From: Marinobacter fonticola
GTDB lineage: Bacteria > Pseudomonadota > Gammaproteobacteria > Pseudomonadales > Oleiphilaceae
Direction of reading: 5' to 3'
NCBI RefSeq assembly: GCF_008122265.1
Contig: NZ_CP043042.1
Span: 1,302,001 to 1,366,000 of the forward strand
DNA: 64,000 bases
A model generated the notes under the pieces. That model ran no database searches. It was not told the DNA's origin and was given only the letters and a program-made list of their open reading frames with translations. Below, in pieces: positions 8,378-15,545 of the stretch. The position numbers and the translations under genes were made by a program. Each line of letters starts with the position of its first letter. Within the stretch, counting starts at the first letter, position 1.

Positions 8378-9094
8378 ATGACGACCTCAGCGACGACCTA
8401 CCGTCTCGATCCGGCGCAGGTACGCGCCGAATTTCTCCGGCTCCTTCCCATCTCGCTTTTTGTGGTGGCGTTTGGCGCTGCCTTTGGTTTGGCTGCGGTG
8501 CAGAAGGGTATCGTTCCGCTGGAAGCCACCTTGATGAGCGTGCTGGTGTTTGCCGGTGCCTCCCAGTTTGCCGTGCTGGAACTTTGGGGCGAGCAGGTGG
8601 CACTGCTGCCGCTGATCGCGATCACTTTCGCCATTAACTCCCGTCATCTGCTGATGGGCGCTTCTCTCTATCCCATGCTGCGCCAGATGCCGATAGCTCA
8701 GCGATACGGCATTCTACTGGTGCTTACAGACGCCAATTGGGCCGTGGCTGCACAGGACTACCAGAATGGTAGACGCAACCTCGAGGTCATTCTCGGGGGC
8801 GGTTTCGTGCTTTGGGTGGCCTGGCTGATCGGAACCCTGCTGGGCGTCTATTTTGGCGGCCTATTGCAGGAGCCCAAGAGTCTGGGGCTGGATATGGTGC
8901 TGGGCTGTTTTCTTCTGGCGATGGCTCTGGGCGGGCGCAAGAATTCGCGGGTTATCGTCGCCTGGACGGTGGCTGGAGCGGCGGCGATGGCCGCTTACTG
9001 GTGGTTGCCGCCACACACCCATGTCGTGGTAGGCGCCCTGGCTGGCGGCGCGGTAGGTTTTTTCTGGTTGGAGCGTCAGTCCGATGAGCATTGA
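8378..9094 (+). CDS. azlC: Branched-chain amino-acid exporter subunit AzlC
   Basis: A 238-residue inner-membrane protein of the AzlC/YgaZ family, the large subunit of a two-component exporter of branched-chain amino acids (or other hydrophobic amino acids). The family features are visible: ISLFVVAFGAAFGLAA near residues 25-40, MSVLVFAGASQFAVLELW (about 53-70), FAINSRHLLMGASLYPML (about 87-104) and LTDANWAVA. It overlaps the next gene by 11 bases (9084-9094), the usual arrangement with azlD, so the two subunits are translated together. Confidence 0.94.
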   Translation: MTTSATTYRLDPAQVRAEFLRLLPISLFVVAFGAAFGLAAVQKGIVPLEATLMSVLVFAGASQFAVLELWGEQVALLPLIAITFAINSRHLLMGASLYPMLRQMPIAQRYGILLVLTDANWAVAAQDYQNGRRNLEVILGGGFVLWVAWLIGTLLGVYFGGLLQEPKSLGLDMVLGCFLLAMALGGRKNSRVIVAWTVAGAAAMAAYWWLPPHTHVVVGALAGGAVGFFWLERQSDEH

Positions 9095-9398
9095 AACGAC
9101 GCACCTTGGCGTTCTGCTAATTATCGTTATTATGGCGGCGGTAACCCTGGTCACCCGCTGGGGCGGGCCCTTCCTGATGTCCTACGTGACCATCAACCCA
9201 CGGGTCGAGAGCTTCATCAATACCATGGCCAGCTCGGTACTGATCGCCATCCTCACGCCGATGGCCTTCACCGGCGATCTGGGCGCCAGACTGGCGTTGG
9301 CTACCACCGCTATCCTGATGCTGGCGCTCCGTAAACCCCTTCCCGCTATCGCCGGCGGAATCCTCGCCGCGGCTGGCGCGCGCTACGTCTTCCAATAA
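9084..9398 (+). CDS. azlD: Branched-chain amino-acid exporter subunit AzlD
   Basis: A 104-residue protein with four membrane segments, the small subunit (AzlD/YgaH) that pairs with AzlC. It begins MSIETTHLGVLLIIVIMAAVTL and contains TRWGGPFLM (about residues 26-34) and the SSVLIAILTPMAF segment typical of the family. The start overlaps the end of azlC. No promoter is seen between them. Confidence 0.92.
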   Translation: MSIETTHLGVLLIIVIMAAVTLVTRWGGPFLMSYVTINPRVESFINTMASSVLIAILTPMAFTGDLGARLALATTAILMLALRKPLPAIAGGILAAAGARYVFQ

Positions 9399-9503
9399 CA
9401 CCACTTGCCGTTTGAGGTTTGCCGATGTATCTCGGGTCACCGCCGGGCCGGTCGACCGGTGGTAGCATGAGTCTTCATCGTGTGTCGGCAGAGACAAGGC
9501 TCC

Positions 9504-10058
9504 ATGGCGGTAATCTCCGCGATAAGCAGACTGATTCCTTCGCTGGTGCTGGTGGCCTTCATCGGCCTGGTGGCGATGTTGTCCAGCGAACGGGCACCCG
9601 GTGACGCCGCGCGCATTGTGCTGCCGCAATGGCCGGACCAGAACCCGCTGGATTGGCAGGCTGTCGATCGGCTTGTCGCCCGGGTGCCGCTGACGGAGAG
9701 AGGGGCTTTGGTGGTCGATGGGCGGACAATCGCCGCACTGGAAGAGGGCAGCCGGGGAGTAGCGCTGCCCTTGACGCCCGAGCAACGTATGCGCATTGAA
9801 TTCTTGCTAAACAAAGGCCTGCCCGACGCGGGCAACGGGGTTGCGGACCTGTTTTTTCGCTTCCTTCAGTATCGAGCGGCCGAACAGGCCCTAGGGACAT
9901 CTGCGAGTCCGGCCGAGCACGAGCGTCTGCAGGCGCGCTTCTTCGGCCACCAGACCGCTCACTCGCTGTTTCAGCAACAGAACGCGATGCGCAAGGGCCT
10001 GGCTGAGCAGGAGGCTCAACGGCAAGGCGAACCGCCGGCAAGCGGAGGTGTGCGCTAA
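9504..10058 (+). CDS. Membrane-anchored half-length lipase-foldase-like protein
   Basis: A 184-residue protein of no firmly known family. The N-terminus is one hydrophobic anchor (about residues 5-26), followed by a Pro/Asp-rich linker and a helical periplasmic part. The order of segments (GALVVDGRTIAALEEG, then RIEFLLNKGLPDAGNGVADLF, FLQYRAAEQALG, and finally RLQARFFGHQTAHSLFQQQ) follows the first half of lipase-specific foldases (LifO/LimA), where a Y-R-A-A helix and an R-x-FFG..-LF motif recur. At 184 residues it is about half the usual foldase length, and the signature R-x-x-F-D-Y motif is not recognisable. AAGG lies before the ATG. Its stop overlaps the next ATG by one base, so it is coupled to the Lnt-like gene. 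The relation is my reading of motifs, not a search result. Confidence 0.6.
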   Translation: MAVISAISRLIPSLVLVAFIGLVAMLSSERAPGDAARIVLPQWPDQNPLDWQAVDRLVARVPLTERGALVVDGRTIAALEEGSRGVALPLTPEQRMRIEFLLNKGLPDAGNGVADLFFRFLQYRAAEQALGTSASPAEHERLQARFFGHQTAHSLFQQQNAMRKGLAEQEAQRQGEPPASGGVR

Positions 10059-11638
10059 TGTCTCGAAGCCCGTTGGACTGGAAAGCGCATCTGCTGGCGG
10101 TCAGCGCCGGGGTCCTGCTGGCGTTGCCGTACAATAACCGTGAATTATTCCTGCTGACGTGGTTGGGTTTCGTTCCCCTGCTGTTTGCCCTTCAGGGCAA
10201 GACACCCGGCCAGTCTTATCGCCTGGGTCTATCCTGTGGGCTGGGTCTTTACGGGGTCGGGGCCTGGTGGGTTGTCGGCTTTATCGAGCGGCTGTGGTCG
10301 CCGGGCCTGGCGGTCACAGCATCGCTCTCACTGCTGTTTTGGTTCTACAGTGCGCAATTGCCGGCGTTGCTGGCGTCATCCTTGCAATGGCTCCGGCGGC
10401 GGACCGGCTGGTCGGATGTGCTTCTCTTCCCGCTTTTGGTTGCGCTTTTCTTCGGTCACTTTCCGATGCTCTTCCATGCTCAGCTTGGCGAAAGCCAAAG
10501 CGCCTTCCTGGCCGCCTTGCAGCCGGTGTCTCTGACCGGCGTGCTGGGGTTGGATACGGTCATCGCTGTGGTGAATCTACTGCTGTTCCGGTGGCTGTCG
10601 GGCGCTGTGGAAGGCCGGCGCGATCCAATAGGTTGGGGTGCGGCCCTGGTACCGGTAGCCTGGCTGGTCTTCGGTGGTTTCAGCCTAGGCGCCTGGGATA
10701 TGCGAATGACCGATTGGTCGTCGCGGCGAATAGGGTTTGTGCAGGAGAACGCACCGGCCGGTGTCGGCAACAAGCCGCCCGTAGCCGGTTATAGTGAAAC
10801 CTATCCGCGTGCGCTGGCACTCTCCGAGCAGTTGACCGCACAAGGGGCTGAGCTGGTGGTCTGGCCTGAAGCGCGATTCAACCCCTACTTTCTCGAGCCC
10901 CGTGTCGCTGAAGCCTTTCGCCAGGCCGCTCAGACCATGGGCGCAGCGCTGCTGTTCCAGGCGATGGAGCGGGAGAACCGGGTGCGGAGTCGATTGGAAT
11001 TCAATAGCGCGGTACTGATCGATGCCCAAGGGCGAGACCAAGGCCACTACCGCAAGATCAAGCGCGTGGCATTCGGCGAGTATCTGCCGGTCCTGGGGCT
11101 GTTCCCGGAGGCGCGGCGCTGGGTTCGGGGAACGTTTGGCGCGTTCTTCAGTCATGTTTCGGCGGGGCAGGGGCCGGCGCGTTTCTCGCTAGATGGCCTG
11201 CAGGTGGTGCCGTTGATCTGCTACGAAGCGATGTTTCCCTATTTCGTTGCCGACGCGGTGCGTGGCGGCGGTGCCGGCGAACTTGTGGTGACGATGTCCA
11301 ACAACGCCTGGTTTGGCGCCACACGCCAGCCGTACCAGCATCTGAATGCATCGGTATTGCGAGCGGTGGAAAGCCGGGCGCCATTGCTTCACGTGATGAA
11401 CAACGGCCCGTCAGCGGTCATTCTGCCCAACGGCCGGCGGCTGTTTGAATCGGCTTACGGTGAGGAAGCGGGTTATTGGGTCGACGTTCCCATACCGGCT
11501 TCAGGCGCCGACAGCTTCTTTACCAGGCAGCCCTGGCTGTTTCGCGGTGCGCTCTATGGCTTGCTGTTGGTCGTGCTGGTCAAGGCGTTCTGGCCTGTTC
11601 GGGCGCGCCGATCAGCGACGTCGGCACCCGCTTCCTGA
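10058..11638 (+). CDS. Apolipoprotein N-acyltransferase (Lnt)-like protein
   Basis: A 526-residue inner-membrane protein: seven or so membrane segments in residues 8-210, a nitrilase-fold periplasmic domain (about 222-480) and a final membrane segment (about 492-515). The Lnt catalytic residues are readable: Glu271 in VVWPEARF, Lys333 in HYRKIKRVAFGEYLP and Cys388 in PLICYEAMFP, matching E267-K335-C387 of the E. coli enzyme. Lnt adds the third acyl chain to lipoproteins. The genomic setting is unusual: canonical lnt normally sits with corC/ybeX and ybeY, but here the gene lies between two foldase-like genes. It may therefore be a paralogue with a special substrate. The usual VPFGEY reads VAFGEY. 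Its 3' end overlaps the convergent gene by 59 bases. Confidence 0.88.
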   Translation: MSRSPLDWKAHLLAVSAGVLLALPYNNRELFLLTWLGFVPLLFALQGKTPGQSYRLGLSCGLGLYGVGAWWVVGFIERLWSPGLAVTASLSLLFWFYSAQLPALLASSLQWLRRRTGWSDVLLFPLLVALFFGHFPMLFHAQLGESQSAFLAALQPVSLTGVLGLDTVIAVVNLLLFRWLSGAVEGRRDPIGWGAALVPVAWLVFGGFSLGAWDMRMTDWSSRRIGFVQENAPAGVGNKPPVAGYSETYPRALALSEQLTAQGAELVVWPEARFNPYFLEPRVAEAFRQAAQTMGAALLFQAMERENRVRSRLEFNSAVLIDAQGRDQGHYRKIKRVAFGEYLPVLGLFPEARRWVRGTFGAFFSHVSAGQGPARFSLDGLQVVPLICYEAMFPYFVADAVRGGGAGELVVTMSNNAWFGATRQPYQHLNASVLRAVESRAPLLHVMNNGPSAVILPNGRRLFESAYGEEAGYWVDVPIPASGADSFFTRQPWLFRGALYGLLLVVLVKAFWPVRARRSATSAPAS

Positions 11639-12437
11639 GCTGTTCCTGCTGCGCCTTCTTTTCCGCCGGGGATAGGGTCGGGTCCGACTGGATACGCATG
11701 CTCTGCAGAGTGTAACGCGTCAGCGTTTCCTCCTTACCGTAAAGCGCTTCGGTGAGTTCGTCTCCCAAGTGGGTCCGGCGCAGGCGACTGAGTTGTTCGA
11801 AGTTCGCCTCCAGATTCGTCAGCTCGCCGTGGTAGCCAAAGGTGTCTTGGATGTCCCGGTAGGCGTTGCTATAGCGGTAGTAGCGCTCCGCAACGTCCGC
11901 CGCCTGTCGGCCTGCTTCGCCCTGAAGACCGCCTTCGATCAGCGTTTTCAACTCGGCGAGCCGGGCCTCGGTCATGGCGTCGTCCGGTTGTAGGAAGGCC
12001 GCTTCCAAAACGGCCTTGGCCTGTTGGTCAAGTTTGACCTCGCCGGATGCATCCAGATTCAGACGGCTCAGCGCGGTGGCGATGGCATCCAACTCGAACT
12101 GGGCTTGGCCCGGGGGTTCGGGCGAGGGTGGTTGCTCTCCCGCTTGAACCGGCGGCTGGCGGAGCGAGGGCCCCGGTTCGGTCGCCGCCGGGGAGCGCGC
12201 CAGCGCGTCCGGTGCGGGCGCTGGGTTTTCCGGCATGTAAACATCCGGTTGCGGCGATGTGGCCGGTTTGGCGACCGGCTTTTCCGGCGTCGTTGCCTTG
12301 AGCCAGCCCAGCATGCCGGCCATCACGAGCGCGAGCGGTCCGGCTACGGCCAGCGAGAGCTTCAGCGCCCGCAGGCGTTGCTGTTGCTTGTGGCGCTTCA
12401 ACTTTGCTTCGGTTCGGTGGGTATCGGATTGGACCAT
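11580..12437 (-). CDS. Lipase chaperone (LifO)-like protein
   Basis: A 285-residue inner-membrane-anchored periplasmic protein. A basic N-terminus (LKRHKQQQRLRALK) precedes one membrane helix at about residues 31-48. A Pro/Ala-rich linker (about 50-110) follows, then a helical body. Foldase landmarks are the segment LDASGEVKLDQQAKAVL, the AERYYRYSNAYRD helix, and RRTHLGDELTEALYGKEETLTRYTLQ near 232-257; in LifO/LimA these helices wrap a secreted lipase and help it fold. The canonical R-x-x-F-D-Y-F-L-S-A is replaced by KAVLEAAFLQ, so the chaperone is divergent, and it is about 50 residues shorter than usual. It follows the AraC gene by 9 bases and lies downstream of a secreted hydrolase, its possible client. 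It converges on and overlaps the Lnt-like gene. Confidence 0.75.
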   Translation of the reverse strand: MVQSDTHRTEAKLKRHKQQQRLRALKLSLAVAGPLALVMAGMLGWLKATTPEKPVAKPATSPQPDVYMPENPAPAPDALARSPAATEPGPSLRQPPVQAGEQPPSPEPPGQAQFELDAIATALSRLNLDASGEVKLDQQAKAVLEAAFLQPDDAMTEARLAELKTLIEGGLQGEAGRQAADVAERYYRYSNAYRDIQDTFGYHGELTNLEANFEQLSRLRRTHLGDELTEALYGKEETLTRYTLQSMRIQSDPTLSPAEKKAQQEQLRKRVPTSLIGAPEQARTP

Positions 12438-12446
12438 GACGATTCC

Positions 12447-13493
12447 TTAGTCGGCCACTTCACGGATTTGGCTGATGGTGGCTCCCGTCCAGTTCTTCAC
12501 CGCACGGCGCAGGCTGGAGGCGCAGGAGAAGCCGGTCAGTTCGGACACGTCCTCGACGCTCAGGCGGGAAAAACGCAACTGGTGCGAGGCGAGTTCCATT
12601 CTTACTTCGTGCAGGATCTTGCGGAACGATGCATTTTCGTTGGCTAAGCGTCGCGTCATGCTGCGCGGCGTCATGCTCATCTGCATGGCGACTTGGTCGA
12701 GAGTGATTTCAGGCTTGAAGTGTGCCCGAATGTGCCAGCGCACCCGGTCGGCAAAAGTGACGTGGGATGGCATCCGGCTAAGCTCCCGCTCGCACTGCTT
12801 TACAATTCTCTCGAAGGTGCGTTGACGCAATCGGCGGAAGCGTTTGAAGACGAACTCAAGCTGACCCGATATCGTCGATTCCTCGCAGCCGAACGTGATG
12901 GAGCTGCAAGGTAGGGCGCTGTATGGCTCGGCATCTTCCGGTTCCGGGATGGATAGGCGCACATGAACGGAGGGGTCCTCCACCGTCTTGTTCCCGCACA
13001 AATCCCATATACGCAGGCTAATAGCCAGCCGGAATTCGCGGATGAACGCCCGCATGACCGGGTTGCCGTCCTCGGCCGTGGGGTAGTCTAGTGGCTCGAC
13101 AATGCGATTGTCGGCGTCAAGATAGGAGTTGGGGTGGGATGCGGCCATGGTGTAGTAAGGCTGCGCGGTGACCATGTAGCGGCGGAAAGCTTCGGCGGCG
13201 TCCTTAAGGTTGGTGCTGCAATGCACCACGAAACCGACCGGCCCCCAAAAACTCCAGTCGAAGTTCATGCCGACCTGCAAACCCAGGCCCGGCCGGGGTA
13301 AGAGTCTGATGCCATTACCGATGAGTGCATGAAGCTGGTTGTAGCTGACACAGACATCCTGCATATCGAACAGAGCGGGTGAGATGCCGGTGCCTCTCAA
13401 CAGGTCGTTCTGGTTGGCGCCCAGTGTACAAAATGCTTCGATAAAACCCAGTGGGTGGCGGTGGAGGGGAATGAGTTTGCTATCAAAATTCAT
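12447..13493 (-). CDS. AraC-family regulator with arabinose-binding-like N-domain
   Basis: A 348-residue cytoplasmic transcription regulator. Residues about 20-205 look like the Arabinose_bd domain of the OruR/ArgR-like AraC subgroup (LGANQNDLLRGTGISPALFD at the start, GPVGFVVHCSTNLKDAAEAF in the middle). The C-terminal 100 residues hold two helix-turn-helix motifs (ITLDQVAMQMSMTPRSMTRRL and VEDVSELTGFSCASSLRRA). It lies between the hydrolase and the foldase-like gene on the same strand, so it probably controls hydrolase production in response to a lipid or ester breakdown product; that role is inferred from position. Confidence 0.92.
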   Translation of the reverse strand: MNFDSKLIPLHRHPLGFIEAFCTLGANQNDLLRGTGISPALFDMQDVCVSYNQLHALIGNGIRLLPRPGLGLQVGMNFDWSFWGPVGFVVHCSTNLKDAAEAFRRYMVTAQPYYTMAASHPNSYLDADNRIVEPLDYPTAEDGNPVMRAFIREFRLAISLRIWDLCGNKTVEDPSVHVRLSIPEPEDAEPYSALPCSSITFGCEESTISGQLEFVFKRFRRLRQRTFERIVKQCERELSRMPSHVTFADRVRWHIRAHFKPEITLDQVAMQMSMTPRSMTRRLANENASFRKILHEVRMELASHQLRFSRLSVEDVSELTGFSCASSLRRAVKNWTGATISQIREVAD

Positions 13494-13546
13494 GGAGAGC
13501 CTCCCTGGCTGTTAAAGCCTGTTTTGTTGTTTTGGGAGCGCACAAT

Positions 13547-13571
13547 AACCGTGCCCGAAAAGGGCACGGTT
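13547..13571 (-). terminator. Hairpin between hydrolase and AraC gene
   Basis: A perfect 10-base-pair stem, aaccgtgccc / gggcacggtt, closes a 5-base loop (13557-13561). On the minus strand it follows the hydrolase stop by about 64 bases and is followed by TTATTGTG, a weak U-tract. It probably ends or attenuates hydrolase transcription before the regulator gene. Confidence 0.55.
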
Positions 13572-13634
13572 ACGTTGTGTCTGTGCTTGCTGACTCTTTA
13601 GCCGCTAAATCCGGCCATGAAAACGATCTAGCCG

Positions 13635-14450
13635 TTACAGTCCTTTGCGCTCGACGTCCCAGTCGCTTAGGTCACAGACTTCGCACGGTCCGGTGAATAG
13701 GTCGGCGGCGTCGGCGTCATCCGACAGCTGATACAACCACCAGGCTGTGGTGATACCGCGGTAATCGCCCATGCTGCCAACCGGCTCGAAGTGACTGGCT
13801 CCATCCAGAGTAGCCCAGAATACCGGAACATCAACACGGCGATAGACCGGCGCCTGGTTCAGCGTGGGACCGGCCAGGGTGTCTGACGAGCCGGAAAGCA
13901 GCAGCATCGGGGCGGTTTGCTGGTATTGCGATGAGGTTTCGTGCCCCAGGCCTAGAATGTAGGGCTGCACCGGAGCGGTCGCGGTGATGCGATCGTCACG
14001 GGCGGCCATGATGGTGCCGCCACCACCTTGTGAGTGGCCGGAGGCGCCGACGTTGGAGAAGTCCAACTGGTCGGCGTAGCTGGTGCGCTGAAGATACTCC
14101 AGGCAGTCCAGCATTTCCTCACCGGAACCGGCATTGGAGGTATTCGCCGCCGCAACGACAAAGCCCCACGAGGCCCAGTGTTCGAGACCGCCGCCATAGG
14201 TGGACGGCGAACCACCGGTGCCGTTACCCCACAAGATCACCGGGTGGTCGTCCTGCAGGTTGACGGGACGATAGATGGTGCATGAGAAACCACCACGCTG
14301 GCTTGTGGTGGCGAACGGGCCATCTTCGGCATAGGCGGCGAGAGAGTCACCGCCCGGCGTCATTGCCACTGCACTGGTGGACAGAATAATACCGCTTACA
14401 GCGGCTGCAGTTTTTGCAGCCCACGTCGATTTTAGGACTTGCAGTTTCAT
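13635..14450 (-). CDS. Secreted alpha/beta-hydrolase (lipase/cutinase-like)
   Basis: A 271-residue exported esterase. The ATG at 14450 follows a GGAA ribosome site; an upstream in-frame start would only add residues before the signal peptide. Residues 1-29 form a Sec signal peptide ending SAVA. The catalytic triad reads Ser140 (GASGHSQGGGG), Asp190 (LLSGSSDTLAG) and His220 (TLDGASHFEP). GNGTGGSPSTYGGG (about 75-88) supplies the oxyanion-hole region. The layout is that of dienelactone-hydrolase-like secreted cutinases, polyester hydrolases and related lipases; the substrate cannot be chosen among them. Cys256 and Cys259 near the C-terminus (CEVC) and Cys57/Cys116 could form disulfides in the periplasm or medium. 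Downstream lie an AraC regulator and a foldase-like gene. Confidence 0.87.
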   Translation of the reverse strand: MKLQVLKSTWAAKTAAAVSGIILSTSAVAMTPGGDSLAAYAEDGPFATTSQRGGFSCTIYRPVNLQDDHPVILWGNGTGGSPSTYGGGLEHWASWGFVVAAANTSNAGSGEEMLDCLEYLQRTSYADQLDFSNVGASGHSQGGGGTIMAARDDRITATAPVQPYILGLGHETSSQYQQTAPMLLLSGSSDTLAGPTLNQAPVYRRVDVPVFWATLDGASHFEPVGSMGDYRGITTAWWLYQLSDDADAADLFTGPCEVCDLSDWDVERKGL

Positions 14451-14771
14451 TGTTGTTTCCTTCCCTGCTGTCATTTGAGAGTTTTTGGCGTTGTTTTGTC
14501 TCGCAGTTCATACACCGAACGAAACACTTGCGATTCTAGGGAGGTGGTTCGCAGGTCGGCTATGACGGGAAAGGCGGGATTGCGGCAGTGTTGGAAGGTC
14601 AGGTTGCGTATAAAAAGTGTACAGCGACGATCGCCGGCGCTACCGCGGTCGTTAAAGCCGTCCTTGGCTCATTCGGGAGAACCGAATAACTCCTGTTTTA
14701 TACGATTTTCCTTCCTGCTAATCGCGCAGAATGCGGTCTGAGGAAAACGTCGAGTACGTGGGTTGGCGCAA

Positions 14772-15545
14772 TCAATTCGAACTGCGCGCGTCCTTGATGA
14801 CATCGTAGGCATGGCTGATTTCGCGGGTTTTTTCCTCGGCCATTTCCCGCATGCTTTCCGGTAGGCCGCGTCCCGCCAATTTGTCGGGGTGATTTTGACT
14901 CATCAGCTTGCGGTAGGCTTTTTTCAGTTCGGCATCGCTGGCGGATTCGGAAACCCCCAGTACTTTGTAAGCATCGGCGAGTTGCTGGCCGCGAGCGGGA
15001 CCGCCACCGGCCGTGCCGCTACGGGCTCCCCGTAGCATGGCTTCAAGCTGGTCAACCTGGGCCTCGGGGATGCCCAGCTTGCGGGCGATGTGAACCAGCA
15101 TTTCATGTTCGGCCGGATGCACCTCGCCATCGGCGCCCACGGCGGAGACCTGGACCTGCAGGAACATCTGTAGCAGCGCGCTTTGGCCACGGGTCACACG
15201 CAGCAACAGGTTCAGTTCGTTGTCCAGATCGAAGTCGTCCTCTTTGCCGCGGCGGAAAGCGGCCTTTGCCGTTTCACGCTGCTCGCCGGACAAACGAAGT
15301 CGATTGAACAGGGTTTCAGCCACCTGGATCTCATCCTGAGTGACCACACCGTCGGCCTTACACACCGCGCCCATGACGGAGAACGTGCTTTCAAGGAACT
15401 GGGACTGAACCCGGAAAATACCCTGGCGTAGCTTGTGGGCTAGGGCCTTGGCGAGGATGTAGCCTACGATCGCGCCAATGAGCAGGCCGGGAAATCGTCC
15501 GAAGCTGTAGCCGATGAGGCCACCGATAAAAAGTGCGAGGAACAT
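14772..15545 (-). CDS. djlA: Co-chaperone DjlA
   Basis: A 257-residue type III J-domain protein anchored in the inner membrane. Residues 1-35 form a glycine-containing membrane segment ([31 protein letters not shown]), as in E. coli DjlA. A TerB-like helical domain follows (about 50-165, with DGVVTQDEI and [12 protein letters not shown]). The J domain occupies about 190-257 with the HPD tripeptide in [12 protein letters not shown] and an [21 protein letters not shown] helix. It stimulates DnaK ATPase and is linked to envelope stress signalling. The gene is monocistronic. Confidence 0.95.

Follow-up and report, generated by a model that had tools for sequence, protein, structure and literature searches.

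In the genome of Marinobacter fonticola, a stretch of 64,000 nucleotides (NCBI RefSeq assembly GCF_008122265.1, contig NZ_CP043042.1, positions 1,302,001 to 1,366,000; this whole stretch is the window below) carries a gene for a paralogue of apolipoprotein N-acyltransferase (Lnt), here named Lnt2. This gene lies between the genes of two small proteins, A and B, which are homologues of the lipase foldase LifO, and is accompanied by the gene of a predicted secreted hydrolase of the PETase/cutinase type. The same gene linkage recurs across the Gammaproteobacteria, in a range of mostly marine bacteria belonging to several genera. The linkage is an observation, while the chemistry is what we infer from it: with a probability of roughly 0.45, the locus would be a module dedicated to maturing a secreted alpha/beta-hydrolase, in most cases one of the PETase/cutinase type; A and B would hold the client, and either the client or a partner would be acylated by Lnt2. 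The components are of known kinds and their combination appears to be new. A preliminary description of this DNA had known of no account of such a pairing, and none was found among the open-literature matches listed, subscription papers, preprints and patents being mostly uncovered. Nor did searches of the open literature find a paper joining a PETase or polyester hydrolase with a lipase chaperone or foldase, a cutinase with a lipase chaperone, or Lnt with a PETase.

A set of 26 distinct Lnt2 loci (the window, L053, L054, L060-L071, L153-L155 and L157-L164) was searched with iteratively built profiles. L156, from the genome of L062, and L055, from that of L164, were left out as duplicates. L158 and L061 lie on contigs of about 3.3 kb with incomplete neighbourhoods and are kept in the denominator of 26. 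A contig scan with two peptide patterns gave at least 80 loci; of the 80 kept, L060-L071 were assigned to Lnt2 and the remaining 68 to other Lnt. Gene A lies directly upstream of Lnt2, on the same strand, in 22 of the 26 loci, which argues that the arrangement is not due to chance. A B-type protein is encoded at 20 of the 26, and a polyester hydrolase within 8 kb of Lnt2 at 19 (20 open reading frames). The gene order seen in the window by the preliminary description is thus kept in other genomes. The next real family after these three consists of relatives of the AraC regulators, present at seven of the 26 loci by BLAST clustering and at eight by profile (L164 being the extra one); a BLAST cluster covering 14 loci was rejected as an antisense shadow of Lnt2.

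Spacing between A and Lnt2 is tight: in 19 of 23 rows, one being the duplicate L156, the two genes overlap or are separated by no more than 24 nt. For the other four rows, the first Lnt2 start codon falls 143-163 nt inside A and is unlikely to be the real one. The frame taken as A in L061 is short and doubtful. Two layouts predominate. B and Lnt2 are convergent in the window, L053, L054, L060, L063 and L071, and B, A and Lnt2 are co-directional, in that order, in L062, L065, L068, L070, L153-L155, L157 and L159-L163. Other arrangements are seen in L067, where 1.7 kb separate the module from a B gene on the opposite strand, in L164, where A and the hydrolase are at the locus and B is elsewhere in the genome (G016), and in L064, where the hydrolase is 44 nt upstream of Lnt2 and neither A nor B was found. 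In an Ectothiorhodospiraceae genome (L066, 8016-9985), Lnt2 converges with genes for another alpha/beta-hydrolase and for a full-length LifO, which suggests that Lnt2 may serve more than one esterase class.

Co-occurrence was counted in two draws of genomes, an order draw of 390 and a class draw of 369, both samples of larger groups. Within the order draw, 11 genomes encode Lnt2 (threshold E <= 1e-60) and 48 encode the hydrolase (E <= 1e-30), and all 11 Lnt2 genomes were among the 48 (Fisher p 3e-11 by genome; by genus 6/6 vs 17/142, p 1e-6; relatedness of the genomes uncorrected). The two genes lie within 6 kb of each other in eight of the 11; they are on different contigs in G239 and G297, and in G335 Lnt2 sits on a contig of 3.3 kb. 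In the class draw, the same three genomes, that of M. fonticola included, carry both. These numbers are biased upward because the profiles were built partly from counted genomes (seven of the 11 in the order draw and all three in the class draw). Those seven supplied rows to the hydrolase profile; the four order-draw genomes without rows in that profile (G194, G239, G297 and G335) were also positive, G335 weakly and away from Lnt2.

Lnt2 contains the LNT_N (PF20154) and CN_hydrolase (PF00795) domains and scores 200.2 bits against TIGR00546, whose equivalog cut-off is 132.9. The catalytic triad recognized in the preliminary description, E271, K333 and C388, is invariant in 29 of 29 aligned relatives, and its frequency is 1.00 in 37 Lnt2 rows as well as in 98 other Lnt rows. 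E341, E390 and W418 are also retained in the Lnt2 rows. Elsewhere, conserved positions are altered: site 445 is R in 98% of canonical Lnt rows and H in all Lnt2 rows, and site 449 is T in 84% of the former and N in 95% of the latter. The invariant triad together with these changes points to a probably active enzyme with a changed acceptor. In a tree of 70 rows (short search; 33 of the 98 available other-Lnt rows used; near-identical pairs L066/P0057 and L153/P0028 included), the 37 Lnt2 rows and the 33 others fall on either side of one branch, for which the Shimodaira-Hasegawa-like approximate likelihood ratio test gives 100 and the stem measures 1.06 changes per column; Lnt2 does not group with canonical Lnt. 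A gap is seen in the search scores as well, since among the best 120 of 396 matches 88 score at least 227 bits and the next one 168.

Seven CN_hydrolase loci were found in the M. fonticola genome at E <= 0.001. One of them, at 3.02 Mb (G000:C1), is a canonical lnt that scores 296.1 bits against TIGR00546, adjoins corC and has a ybeY-like frame upstream (by eye). The possibility that the window gene is the sole lnt of this genome is thereby ruled out, and the gene is to be regarded as a paralogue, hence the name Lnt2. The second lnt near corC for which the preliminary description had suggested looking is therefore present. Neither a phage nor a plasmid origin was retained for Lnt2: no relative was confirmed in viral contigs, and the 282 plasmid records were all below 60% identity, the 20 best at about 27-32% and nearly all named lnt.

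B matches the Lipase_chap family (PF03280) with 63.1 bits (cut-off 25.7), only over profile positions 3-94 of 192, and the window protein ends where this match stops, without a complete MD1-EHD-MD2 folding domain. Window A alone has no Pfam match, PF03280 included. As a family, A is clearly related: 10 of 21 members match PF03280 at E <= 0.01, the A and B families align with each other in hhalign (probability 99.7, E 2.7e-26), and the A-family profile finds the solved lipase chaperones 9g8u (E 4.4e-9) and 2es4 (E 9.7e-5). A protein search with the A family gave five matches. The LifO relation of both small proteins suggested in the preliminary description therefore holds on profile evidence, although Foldseek alone gave no significant relation for A. 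Both frames are open, and the predicted models are confident in their helical parts. In B, a single N-terminal membrane helix is predicted at residues 9-48 (AlphaFold2), and an N-terminal hydrophobic stretch of mean hydropathy >= 1.6 is present in 20 of 21 B proteins (L066 included) and 19 of 22 A proteins.

The foldase label itself fares less well. The available sections of two sources (PMC7046727; PMC13381987) place the foldase motif RXXFDY(F/C)L(S/T)A in MD1 of LifO. At the aligned site it occurs in none of 42 distinct A and B proteins, that is, in 0 of 21 B rows (the full-length L066 LifO set aside, duplicate L156 counted) and 0 of 23 A rows (L156 counted). The looser pattern F[DE][YF] is found in 19 of 26 reference LifO-like open reading frames, and elsewhere in the sequence in five of 23 A rows. 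Moreover, window A and B both lack the MD2 half, as judged from the profile match and the predicted models; an MD2-like tail is retained in B of L062, L065, L154 and others. Without the motif, and without the MD2 half in this genome, A and B are, as far as their sequences tell, foldase homologues rather than demonstrable foldases, a distinction that the preliminary description had overlooked. A further LifO-related frame of 369 aa lies elsewhere in the M. fonticola genome (L009; G000:C1:3312556, minus strand), where it adjoins an SGNH-type hydrolase (by eye); its PF03280 match is weak, covers positions 118-190 and is below the cut-off.

The window hydrolase is assigned to the PETase/cutinase type by PF12740 (56.2 bits, cut-off 28), by its solved relatives and by its nucleophile motif, which is found in all 20 linked hydrolase reading frames. 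Its best relatives in the PDB are 9k0h ('Alpha/beta hydrolase', 316.1 bits), 9w68 ('PETase', 315.9) and 2fx5 ('lipase', 283.5; which we take to be the Pseudomonas mendocina cutinase), with 9hl5 also among the best. Its score against the NCBIfam equivalog BdeA, 47.4 bits, is far below the cut-off of 520. A signal sequence is seen by eye. The linked hydrolase of L154 is of another type, with 7z6b (a cutinase), Ple628, Ple629, 6sbn (a polyester hydrolase) and PET hydrolases such as 5xjh as solved relatives, and the further linked hydrolases align with either the window type or the L154 type. At L154 (12724-14961), tandem PETase-type hydrolases lie beside the module, reminiscent of the tandem Ple628/Ple629.

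In one hydrolase clade, the signal sequence is followed by a Pro/Gly-rich linker, whose crude length (cut sites guessed; controls few and from one family) is 24-35 in 11 distinct linked copies, 26 and 28 in two unlinked copies of Lnt2 genomes, and 18, 19 and 19 in three genomes without Lnt2. The copy at L059, in an Lnt2 genome and away from Lnt2, has a distance of 13. A longer linker in the hydrolases of Lnt2 genomes is suggestive only, and no comparable difference is seen by eye in the other hydrolase clade.

According to the proposed mechanism, the client would most likely leave the cytoplasm by Sec. A and B, predicted to be membrane-anchored, would then bind it on the periplasmic side in the way that LifO binds a lipase, given that client and lipase share the alpha/beta-hydrolase fold. 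B may be the core client binder, since it also occurs beside hydrolases without Lnt2, and A, coupled to Lnt2, would bring the client to the acyltransferase. Lnt2 would take an acyl chain from a phospholipid via C388 and transfer it either onto the client or onto a partner in the membrane, so that the client is tethered or readied for export. The LifO relation, the second lnt and the conserved order leave the idea of the preliminary description, that a specialised acyltransferase may rely on foldase-like partners to fold or deliver its substrate, well placed as a reading of the sequences. Acylation is the least certain step.

Several observations weigh against the proposed module. The linked hydrolases, that of the window included, show no lipobox where the signal sequence ends; the pattern occurs in three of the 20, each time near the beginning of the hydrophobic stretch (L161, among the 20, is truncated at its start). 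The reading of the hydrolase as a lipobox protein was rejected, and the linked enzymes are therefore not normal Lnt substrates. Further, Lnt2 is present in L069 with hydrolase, A and B all not found, and in L153 and L155 A and B are present with the hydrolase on another contig. Linked copies were the source of the hydrolase profile, a bias in favour of the co-occurrence counts, and Lnt2 is missing from 37 of the 48 order-draw genomes that encode the hydrolase. Among 20 hydrolase loci without linked Lnt2 (of 64 such places), 19 have no B neighbour; a B-like neighbour occurs in one (L207) and Lnt2 in none. Together with L057 and L059, which were fetched for their B-like gene and are further hydrolase and B pairs without adjacent Lnt2, L207 suggests that hydrolase and B may be a smaller unit, to which A and Lnt2 are an addition. 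Finally, the constructs used to produce Ple628 and Ple629, which are related to the linked enzymes, lacked the signal peptide, and the available text of that paper does not contain the words 'chaperone' or 'foldase' (PMC9350882). A foldase seems not to be obligatory for such hydrolases, so that holding and delivery by A and B would be likelier than obligatory folding.

With no lipobox at hand, the client is unlikely to undergo the usual Lnt reaction, which leaves two options: Lnt2 acylates an amine other than that of a cysteine, or it acylates another protein. The first would amount to a new lipidation route, the Lnt paralogue N-acylating lipobox-less secreted esterases presented by a membrane-anchored half-foldase pair, and we hold it to be unlikely. 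The second leads to the alternative that survives best, which is still rather improbable: as holding chaperones, A and B would pass the hydrolase on to type II secretion, and the protein acylated by Lnt2 would be A, B or a docking envelope lipoprotein instead of the hydrolase. The missing lipobox of the client and the hydrophobic N-termini of A and B fit this, as does a GspG gene of type II secretion, above its cut-off, in the genome. Membrane-associated chaperones specific for type II secretion substrates are reported in Acinetobacter, in the part of the source available (PMC4713064). The acceptors that it needs are less evident, as the lipobox pattern occurs in only one of 22 A and two of 21 B proteins, none consistently, and no lipoprotein-like family is prominent by eye among the neighbourhood clusters.

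The altered Lnt positions, with the active site intact, are also consistent with a substrate of another kind. Lnt2 might acylate a lipid or another inner-membrane amine in an adaptation of the envelope, the genes being merely co-induced through AraC on polyester or oil, for which the regulator genes at seven loci could be cited. Such an explanation is quite unlikely, and leaves both the LifO homology of the linked helpers and the tight A-Lnt2 coupling unaccounted for. Very unlikely, lastly, is a redundant second lipoprotein N-acyltransferase beside decaying foldase remnants in a neighbourhood of historical accident; the score of Lnt2 above the equivalog cut-off and the missing motif and half-domain of A and B would suit it, but the invariant triad, the separate clade with its long stem, the same gene order in several genera and the open, confidently modelled frames of A and B would not.

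Table 1. Features of the Lnt2 locus of M. fonticola (positions in the window).
Feature	Position	Strand	Description
Gene A	9504..10058	+	184 aa, single-pass, half-foldase of LifO family (MD1 and first EHD helices)
Lnt2	10058..11638	+	526-aa paralogue of apolipoprotein N-acyltransferase, triad E271-K333-C388
Gene B	11580..12437	-	285 aa, single-pass, LifO family, profile match ends at 94/192 (no MD2)
AraC-family regulator	12447..13493	-	PF12625 and PF12833; just upstream of B, same strand
Terminator-like 11-bp hairpin	13546..13572		Between hydrolase and AraC gene; consensus match only
Predicted secreted hydrolase, PETase/cutinase type	13635..14474	-	PF12740; proposed client

The coordinates of the three central genes given in the preliminary description hold (Table 1), as do their order and their overlaps; the AraC gene and the polyester hydrolase, the likely client, had been overlooked there. 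Gene A is read from the ATG at 9504 to a TAA ending at 10058, with an in-frame GTG at 9480 as a possible alternative start. Its junction with Lnt2 is TAATG, a 1-base overlap that places the Lnt2 ATG at 10058, and the Lnt2 stop ends at 11638. B and Lnt2 share 59 bases at their convergent ends, and the identical 59-base overlap is found in L053 and L054, two loci of the same genus. By consensus match only, nine terminator-like sites were found in 9300-14700, where shuffled sequences would give 6.1. Adjoining the hydrolase, 14772-15545 (minus strand) encodes a protein that looks J-domain-like by eye and has a hydrophobic stretch at its N-terminus; homologues lie near Lnt2 in four of the 26 loci, namely the window, L053, L054 and the distant L064. 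The pair upstream of gene A (8378-9398, plus strand), presumably AzlC/AzlD-like, has the same position in L053 and L054 and is found at no other Lnt2 locus in the BLAST clusters.

PETase-type enzymes are usually studied as stand-alone secreted catalysts, and we know of no PETase/cutinase-type hydrolase that comes with chaperone or acyltransferase genes. If the proposed module is real, a set of marine PETase relatives would have their own chaperone pair and a dedicated acyltransferase, and their native anchoring, maturation and export may differ from those of recombinant enzymes. The functions of two textbook families, LifO and Lnt, would also be widened. If, in addition, the novel lipidation were true, the natural form of the PETase-type enzymes in these marine bacteria would be lipidated and anchored at the cell surface. 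Such a module would offer a testable handle on the natural biology and the production of PETase relatives.

Among known systems, the type II secretion chaperones of Acinetobacter (PMC4713064) share with the proposed module the use of dedicated membrane-associated chaperones for exported enzymes; the available part of that source mentions no acyltransferase, unlike this module. The two linked hydrolases compared with the PDB are close relatives of known PETase/cutinase-type hydrolases (PF12740; 9W68, 2FX5, 6SBN, 7VMD). With LifO, Lif and LimA (PF03280; 2ES4, 9G8U), to which they are homologous by profile and fold, A and B share the N-terminal membrane helix, linker, MD1 and early EHD helices, and window B, like LifO, is downstream of an esterase gene on the same strand. 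Unlike LifO, they lack the RXXFDY(F/C)L(S/T)A motif and, in the window, MD2, are two separate proteins, and would have polyester hydrolases rather than classical lipases as clients. Lnt2, in turn, shares LNT_N and CN_hydrolase, the triad and the neighbouring catalytic residues with Lnt (TIGR00546; PDB 5N6H, 5VRG), but differs from canonical Lnt in forming a separate clade, in its altered conserved sites, in its position away from corC and in its linkage to LifO homologues and a hydrolase.

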